DNA from: Trogon surrucura
Taxonomy: Eukaryota > Chordata > Aves > Trogoniformes > Trogonidae
Length of the DNA stretch: 64,000 nucleotides
Assembly (NCBI GenBank): GCA_020746105.1
Contig: CM036632.1
Span: forward strand, 5,890,001-5,954,000
Reading direction: 5' to 3'
Part shown: piece by piece, positions 4,550-16,375 of the stretch
How positions within the stretch are numbered: the first letter of the stretch is position 1
How the letters are laid out: every line of letters begins with the position of its first letter
Program-made: the position numbers and the translations under genes
The notes under the pieces: model-generated
The model's database searches: none
Seen by the model: only the letters and a program-made list of their open reading frames with translations
What the model was told of the DNA's origin: nothing

Positions 4550-5312
4550 TCTGCCGTTTTCTTTAATTACAATCTCGGAGGTAATTTCTGACGCATCATT
4601 AACAGTTCTGAGTAAACAAGGGGAATTCTCCAAATTATTTGCCATGAGCACAAAGGGAAATTGGCTTTCATCGCTCCCTCTTCAAGGAAGAAGTTGATCT
4701 GCAGCAGACATGGGGAGGAAGGGAGCATCGTGGCTGCCCTCAGATGCCTCGAGTCACCTCGAGACGGAGCAGTGACCCATCCAGCTTCTCTGACTGACTG
4801 GGAGGCCAGCTCTGCCTGCAGCTTTTTGGTCCTACTGCTGAGCTGAGCAGCTGGGATTGTGACTGTAAATGAAAAATGCCTCTCGCCTATGAGGGCTTTG
4901 GATGCTGCTTTTAAGTGTTCACCTCCCATTTCCAGATGAAAGAATCAGTACTCAAGCAACTCAGGAGATGGGACAACATCCTCAAGGCTGTCTCTCAGCA
5001 TGGAATGTGACACCTTGGACCTCGGCTGTTGAGGTGAGGGGTAATGCCTGAGGCCAACAAGGGGTTGGGTTGGGAAGGGAAGGAAGGAGGACTGATATGG
5101 AGGGACTTGGGGCCTGGGAGACTGTGTTTTGTCCAAAGCAAGAACTCAGAAGGATATTGGTACATATCAGGACAGCACCAAATGTACGTGACATATTTGC
5201 TGCTCTCGTGGTATGTACCAGTACTAGGGGTGGAGGAGGTGGCTGGAGAGGATCTCTTTGCTGGGAGTCCATGGGAGGGCATTCCAGCCTCATGCAGGGC
5301 TCGAGAGAAAGG
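4550..5312. other. Intergenic sequence, nothing recognisable
   Basis: GC-balanced sequence with a GGAAGG-rich patch near 5070-5090. No repeat family or gene is supported. Confidence 0.55.
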
Positions 5313-14260: not shown

Positions 14261-16023
14261 CCATGTACACGGGCCCCCACAGGATCAGGGCCAACGTTTG
14301 CGAAGTGCTGTGAGATGCTTGGATGAAGGAGACTACAGAAGCGCAAAGTATTACTTTTTCATGATTACTGCAGTTGCTATCCTTGGGGCTGTCCAAATGT
14401 TGTTGTTCCAAGTGCAAATACAAAACCCGTTTGGCACGTTTCTTTTTTTTTTTGTGTGTGTTGTGATAAATAGAAATGCAGTAGGGGAAAAAAAAAATCT
14501 CCTCCTAACAGTGAAAGAAGGAAAGCAGTCCCTGTGCAATTTGTTACACATCTCATATGTCTCTGACTGCTAGCTGTAGAGATATTTAGAGGGAGTATTT
14601 AAGCCAACTCAGTGCACAGCCTCTGGAGCACCGGCTTCTGCTTTGGTCCATGCTTGGTTGAACCTTTACAGCAGCTTTATGGTTTTTTTCAACACAGCGT
14701 TTCAGGAGAGGCTTTGATTCTGGAGGATGCCAACTGCGCCGAGTGGGGCTAAGATGATTAATCAAATTATTTGAAGGGTGTTCGCCAGAACTGGGAAGTG
14801 ACCAGTCTCTGTCCTAATCTCTGGATTGAGATGTCAAGCCGGCCTCCAGCTCAGAGCACTGAGCTCGCCAGGAGGCAGAGGGTGGAAAGAAATCTCCAGC
14901 AATGAACAGCCTGGCAGGGCTGCCCGTGGTGGGGGGGTGCTGCTGGCCATCAGGAGCTGTGGGGTAGAGCTGCTAGGTGTGGCTGTGGGGGCTTTGCACA
15001 TTGGGAAGGCAAAACAAAGCTGCTCCAGCTTGCCAGAGAGTAGGAATAAGGTGATGGTTGTGCCGCAAGCTGCTTTCCTCCCACTGGCTGTTGGCTGGGA
15101 GGGAGAAAAGCCGAAATGTGCTGCGCTCCTGCAGCTCTCAGCTGGTCACGAGGTGTGGGTTCCTCTGCTCCCACCCTGATTTTAGGTCTTTGCCAAGCAG
15201 GATGGAGGAACAAGTGGCCTGGCACGGAAGAGACACAAGCGTGAAGTCATTCTGAACTTGGTGCCGGTGTCAGGTGCTTAGAGGAGCTGGGGCTTTGTTC
15301 AAGTCTTGCAGGGGATGTCAGGGTGGACAGCGTGGGACTGCACTGACAGAGCTGACAAAACGCTTCGAGAGACGAGAAACCTGGTGGGGAGCCGGGACTC
15401 AGCTTCGATGATGCCCTTTTTGGGGACCAGATAGGTCCATCGCCCATCTGCTTTTGCTTTTGGTAAGTGTTTGGATTTATCCACAGTTAAAGATGAAACC
15501 AGAGCACTCGAGAAGGAGAAGGTATGTGCTGCTGCAGCACAGCACGGGGCAGCCAGGGCTGAGTTGAGCACTGTGGGGTTAAGAGTGAATCCGTCCACAT
15601 GGGGAAGCAGGATCCCCTGCTGCCCTTCTTCCCGTGCCTGCCCTGCGGCTTGGGGGCAGATGGGCTTTCCCCAGAGCCAGGGTGAGCACTTGGCACTACT
15701 GCATAGAGAATTGCAGGTCCTGTCTCTGCTCTCCAGCTGCCTGGGTGGCCGATGTCCCTGCTTCCACATGAACCCCAAAGCGTGCCAGGATCCCCTTTCA
15801 GCACGAGCTGAGGGCGTTTCATGGACCGATGACCTGAGCATCCTCGCTTTCTCTGCCTTCTCTGTGCCGTTTTCCTGTCCACTGTCCACTTTTTCCTCAG
15901 CAAACACCTCTCTACATCTCTCCACTTCTCTTCCAGCCCCAAATCCGGGGGGCACTCGCCCTCGGCTGGAGCAATGCTGGGGCCGAGTGTTTGCAGAGGT
16001 CCCGCTCGCCATCTGCACGACTT
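14261..16023. other. Intergenic sequence, GC-rich towards the right
   Basis: It has a T-run near 14441-14453 and an A-run near 14489. From about 15400 it is GC-rich, with overlapping open frames on both strands (239 and 225 codons minus, 194 plus). The frames overlap each other antiparallel, as expected from composition, and none carries a domain. Confidence 0.5.
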
Positions 16024-16140
16024 GGTGGACGCTGGCTCCTGGCCAGGTGGGTTGAAGCCGCCGGGAGCCCCCCAGACGCGTGAAGCGTCTGGGGGGCTCC
16101 CGGCGGCTTCAACCCACCTGGCCAGGAGCCAGCGTCCACC
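16024..16140. repeat. Perfect 56-bp inverted repeat with 5-nt spacer
   Basis: The left arm (16024-16079) and right arm (16085-16140) are exact reverse complements at all 56 positions, separated by GTGAA. The flanks differ immediately outside both ends. The arms are GC-rich and a transcript of either strand would form a long, stable hairpin. Because of the symmetry both strands read nearly the same open-frame peptide, so the two overlapping open frames here should not be taken as coding evidence. The perfect identity means the structure is very young or an artefact of cloning, sequencing or assembly. Confidence 0.98.
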
Positions 16141-16204
16141 CGGTGCCCACGGCACCGCGGTCACGTGTGGCCATCAGCTGATGGGTAGGATGACTCAGCC
16201 GGCA
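16141..16204. promoter_or_regulatory. E-box and AP-1 words beside the hairpin
   Basis: A CACGTG E-box lies at 16162-16167 and a consensus AP-1 word TGACTCA at 16191-16197. Both sit between the hairpin and the AT-rich block that follows. Both are consensus matches by eye; occupancy is unknown. Confidence 0.3.
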
Positions 16205-16375
16205 GCTGTCGGGCCCCTAAAATAATGACAAAAACAATTAGCAGTCCAAGCAGTAGCCTCTCCTTAATTATCTCCTCCGAGTTTAATTAACTAGCTAAAT
16301 TATCAGCAGTAATGTAGGCATTAATTATGTCAAATTACAGTGTAAAAATCACAAAGTGTGGAAAATGTCAATTCA
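16205..16375. promoter_or_regulatory. Candidate enhancer, TAATTA cluster
   Basis: In 170 bp there are CAATTAG (16235-16241), TTAATTA (16264-16270), TTTAATTAA (16282-16290), CTAAATTATC and ATTAATTAT (16320-16328), plus CAAATTACAG. The sharp contrast with the GC-rich neighbour and the density of homeodomain-type cores are characteristic of conserved non-coding elements near developmental genes. Confidence 0.4.

Follow-up and report, generated by a model that had tools for sequence, protein, structure and literature searches.

A perfect 56-bp hairpin in single-copy trogon DNA: a proposed fold-back insertion with a second, unrelated example in the same genome

The stretch of DNA analysed here, 64,000 nucleotides of Trogon surrucura (C19:5890001-5954000; hereafter the window), carries near 16 kb a long hairpin, whose parts are listed in Table 1. 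Comparison of the arms by reverse complement indicated pairing at 56 of 56 positions around the 5-nt loop, as an earlier note on this DNA had claimed. The sharp boundaries claimed there were likewise observed: T at 16023 and C at 16141, the first bases outside the arms, do not pair, and pairing thus stops at both outer edges. Each arm contains four CpG. When folded as DNA, the hairpin forms a single uninterrupted stem of -89.2 kcal/mol (z -20.9), and the RNA fold of the region gave -177.9 kcal/mol (z -15.6). The small inverted repeat of 7 bp follows the hairpin directly on its right side and is also paired in the RNA fold. The label "GC-rich", given earlier to the whole site, fits the hairpin but not its right side, where the sequence at about 16220-16370 is AT-rich by eye.

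Table 1. Positions of the two long hairpins and of the adjoining small repeat
Feature	Position	Strand	Basis
Left arm, 56 bp, 75% GC	16024..16079	+	sequence comparison, hairpin scan
Loop GTGAA, 5 nt	16080..16084	no strand	sequence
Right arm, exact reverse complement of left arm	16085..16140	-	sequence comparison
Separate small inverted repeat CGGTGCC, 3 nt, GGCACCG (7 bp)	16141..16157	no strand	sequence, fold
Second perfect hairpin, 37-bp arms, 2-nt loop GA, GC-rich	L005 328-403 = C19:1500328-1500403		sample scan

The description of the locus as single-copy was confirmed by searching the assembly (1,165,559,148 bases in 164 contigs) with queries of 201 and 1,201 bases: the locus was found once in the 1.17-Gb genome, and the only extra match was the hairpin's own other arm. 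No second haplotype contig of the locus was found among the 164 contigs with the same queries. Since the hairpin is single copy, it is not a repeat family. A MITE or fold-back transposon, for which several genomic copies are required, was rejected on the same ground, the hairpin being found in one place by a word search that passes over very common words. Rfam gave no match at gathering score across the window, and hence no described RNA family that would mark the hairpin as a microRNA precursor. A codon-usage scan, based on human codon usage, gave no coding signal near 16 kb, and among the 157 stop-to-stop reading frames of at least 100 aa, Pfam at E up to 0.1 gave no match for nine, nor for part of a tenth; by these results, from a check that could miss short exons, a coding origin of the hairpin was rejected. 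No tandem repeat was detected at 14-18 kb of the window. The scan for promoters and terminators was of bacterial type and uninformative for bird DNA. Altogether the site looks like single-copy non-coding DNA. Elsewhere in the window, a T-run (23493-23519) and an A-run (about 24349-24376) flank some 830 bases with the best codon-usage scores of the window, on both strands; for two stretches tried within 23493-24376, no Pfam match was obtained.

The E-box, AP-1 and TAATTA words that had been reported beside the hairpin are all present in the sequence. By eye, CACGTG lies at 16162-16167, CAGCTG at 16175-16180 and TGACTCA at 16191-16197, to the right of the hairpin, and TAATTA begins at 16265, 16284 and 16322.

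The hairpin is far beyond the range of chance. The second-longest perfect hairpin in the window, with loops of up to 60 nt, has a stem of 13 bp, and the longest in five order-1 Markov sequences of equal length were 9-12 bp. In 1.17 Gb, the expected number of 56-bp stems by chance is about 10^-22.

We then sampled this genome further in 25 pieces of 10 kb each (11 on C19 and 14 on eleven other contigs), picked regardless of hairpins. Inverted repeats with loops of up to 100 nt were scanned at match +1 and mismatch -3, with an arm score threshold of 14. Exactly one inverted repeat in the 250-kb sample reached this threshold, and it was a second perfect hairpin (Table 1). This hairpin was also found once in the genome, and its sequence is unrelated to that of the window hairpin. 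Two long perfect hairpins were thus found in 314 kb, one in a window that had drawn attention and one in the 250-kb sample; both are GC-rich and both are located on C19. The earlier interpretation is amended in that the window hairpin is not the only one of its kind. As an unrelated 37-bp hairpin turned up in a sample of this size, the generating process, either mutation or assembly error, recurs.

The word pair GGGGGGCT/AGCCCCCC is present in both hairpins. Genome-wide, the word was found facing its own reverse complement at a distance of 1-30 bases in 140 places, against 18 for a control pattern that contains CpG and hence gives an unfair comparison. Among 50 listed of the 140 places, all 41 inspected (40 loci) had stems of only 8-12 bp and none was long; the remaining nine were additional units of a single C9 tandem array. 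The word pair was accordingly rejected as a hallmark of long hairpins. For a second word pair, spacings of 0-30 gave 16 places (control, 1) and spacings of 101-131 gave 11 (control, 0), numbers of little power in which no clear excess at near spacing was seen. On C9, a 30-base match recurs between 8917548 and 9289541; its copies form two interleaved series, each with a step of about 24.3 kb, and resemble a large tandem array.

A gapped search for inverted repeats was performed over the 314 kb (317,500 bases including overlaps) and three order-2 Markov controls. Scores of at least 30 were reached by 76 inverted repeats in the real DNA, a count that includes the window hairpin and one other twice through overlaps among the matches listed, and by 37, 38 and 24 in the controls. 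The real DNA is thus richer in weak inverted repeats, among which there could be very old hairpins; of those listed, many consist of AT-rich or repetitive sequence. The two hairpins scored 219 (window) and 142 (sample), followed in the real DNA by scores of 51 and 50, and the control maxima were 48, 43 and 52. No half-decayed hairpin was found between scores 142 and 51 in the 314 kb. One of the weak repeats, an imperfect palindrome of 76% at 5155-5223 of the window (score 51), might be an old decayed hairpin.

The decay of such hairpins was simulated under the assumptions that CpG changes 8 times faster and that indels are a tenth of substitutions. At 0.005 substitutions per site, the intact frequency was 0.26 for 56-bp and 0.43 for 37-bp arms; at 0.10 substitutions per site, a score of at least 60 was retained in 58% and 38% of trials, respectively. 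Integration of the simulation tables by hand indicated that a hairpin is intact for only about 3% (56 bp) or 6% (37 bp) of the time during which it is detectable. Perfect CpG-bearing arms therefore imply recent origin or active correction, which agrees with the earlier claim. With a bird mutation rate near 2e-9 per site per year, the simulation puts the time spent intact at about 2-3 million years. Under simple formation and decay, the probability that both detectable hairpins are intact is about 0.002, a value that overstates the case because the window hairpin had been picked for its perfection; for the sampled hairpin alone it is about 0.06. Two intact hairpins and no intermediates in 314 kb, small numbers as they are, point to a poor fit with steady neutral accumulation. 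The absence of intermediates suggests fast loss, arm-to-arm correction or recurrent assembly error.

For comparison of rates, avian microinversions outside hotspots are estimated at 0.25 per Mb per million years in one study (PMC3123225). By our estimate, events at this rate would leave about 0.5-0.7 intact scars per Mb. The observed frequency lies above this value, both with two hairpins counted in 0.314 Mb and with the single one in the independently drawn 0.25 Mb, but counts so small do not establish a difference. An extended proposal is that GC-rich bird chromosomes carry several long perfect short-loop hairpins per Mb, formed by frequent fold-back copying and purged or corrected between arms so fast that intermediates hardly exist, and so commoner than the microinversion rate suggests; this we consider unlikely. 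Searches of open-licence papers listed no report that treats GC-rich hairpins with long perfect arms as a class of their own in birds.

We propose, with a probability of roughly 60%, that the window hairpin is a recent germline fold-back insertion, made by template switching or by repair of the Pol-theta type, and a scar of mutation rather than a working element. This reading is based on the perfect 56-bp arms, the sharp ends, the single copy and the second independent single-copy hairpin; from these we infer the copying event, the youth of the hairpin, and real DNA rather than assembly error. While DNA was being replicated or a break repaired, a 3' end would anneal to bases lying shortly behind it, or switch to the complementary strand, and about 56 bases would then be copied backwards. 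The growing end would return to the normal template, or the product would be joined to the other break end, leaving two arms that are exact reverse complements on either side of a turn of 5 nt. A short turn of the kind used in such self-priming was found in both hairpins, with 5 nt in the window hairpin and 4 nt in the DNA fold of the sample hairpin. The template-switch origin suggested in the earlier note is partly supported: the arms are beyond chance, and reverse copying in one event is described to make such arms. Microhomology at the return junction, as judged from the present-day sequence, was GGTG in the window (P 0.47) and CTGCCT in the sample hairpin (P 0.046), at chance level in the one and weak in the other, and gave no clear signature of mechanism.

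The same observations can be read as an error of assembly or library, in which one arm is a spurious reverse copy generated by polymerase fold-back or by consensus or gap-filling error in GC-rich DNA. Two perfect hairpins with zero intermediates in 314 kb, both GC-rich and on the same contig, agree with such an origin, and artificial palindromes are known as products of whole-genome amplification (PMC6218980). The two arm lengths, however, have no fixed size in common. Palindromes made by amplification continue to the fragment end, unlike the window sequence, which leaves the arm for a different flank. Further, the assembly keeps apart many near-identical copies of PF02422, the feather/scale beta-keratin family, a mild sign of good quality; at least 150 matches to this profile were scored among 344 candidates, and none in 14 control genomes. 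Together with the size of the genome, these matches agree with a bird as the source. Among the at least 150 scored, clusters were observed on C6 (1.0-1.26 Mb), C26 (5.6-6.36 Mb) and C32 (1.25-1.38 Mb). On balance we place an artefact on the unlikely side, though it has to be reckoned with.

If the hairpin were instead older and kept perfect by copying from arm to arm, through template-switch correction or gene conversion, its perfection would give no date. The lack of intermediates in the 314 kb is consistent with this, and the conversion of nearly perfect inverted repeats into perfect ones is regarded in PMC7954356 as typical of template switching. In nematodes, according to PMC1803023, the structure of inverted repeats is far more conserved than their sequence, although those repeats are much longer. 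We judge this maintenance improbable. Very improbable is a function as hairpin RNA, a source of microRNA or endo-siRNA, or as a selected cis element. A putative transcript is predicted to form an almost complete duplex, which the earlier note had taken as a possible Dicer or ADAR substrate, and the adjoining E-box, AP-1 and TAATTA words might be taken as candidate parts of such an element. The lack of an Rfam match in the window argues against a functional RNA, and so does the acquisition of mismatches by known microRNA stems after a perfect phase, as reported in PMC8794818; that so small a sample held another hairpin, unrelated in sequence, speaks for a process rather than for a selected element.

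A 56-bp hairpin that is still perfect would preserve one fold-back copying event cleanly, and with a second hairpin in 250 kb of this genome the case is no longer a mere curiosity, since a rate can be measured. The main interest lies in this recurrence and in the lack of intermediates, which raises the question whether such scars in birds are destroyed, corrected, or errors of assembly. If they are errors, the hairpin signature marks a fault worth screening assemblies for; if they are real, GC-rich bird DNA may undergo fold-back copying more often than the microinversion rate suggests.

Among known systems, the avian microinversions resemble the hairpin in being small inverted events in bird non-coding DNA, and differ in that a segment is inverted in place (PMC3123225), whereas here the inverted copy adjoins its source; no stem-loops were detected at the microinversion hotspots of that study. 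In a survey of 118,019 genomes (PMC13155455), the arms of perfect inverted repeats of eukaryotes are AT-rich relative to background, in contrast to the two GC-rich hairpins here. Fold-back insertions in break repair, including those by Pol theta, share with the hairpin an inverted copy that a few paired bases prime over a short turn and an unrelated flank beyond it, as described in PMC11724301 and PMC11292364. The former gives 2 to about 150 bp for fold-back inversions in yeast, most of them below 14. According to the latter, two terminal base pairs are the starting point of stem-loop synthesis by human Pol theta; it cites, for mammalian cells, inverted insertions of 3-30 bp and, for Drosophila, a most favourable loop of 6 nt, whereas the present hairpins have arms of 56 bp with a 5-nt loop and of 37 bp with a loop of 2 nt (4 nt when folded). 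A further likeness is to short-range template switching, for which a four-point model has been described. Mutations of this class are exact reverse complements of a nearby template, as is the arm of the window hairpin along its whole length. In PMC7954356 and PMC8794818, a single event in single-copy DNA yields inverted repeats that are perfect and closely spaced, usually with lengthening of the sequence, and PMC8794818 attributes perfect stems to such single events. For great apes, PMC7954356 gives a median copied length of 12 and a maximum of 128, and 65.0% of events lengthen the sequence. The lengths of 56 and 37 bp lie inside this range yet are long against its median; 56 bp is in the upper tail of the known class of fold-back mutations, and both lengths count against the proposed reading. 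The proposed origin is plausible, and the window hairpin would then add a new and long case to a kind of mutation scar already known.
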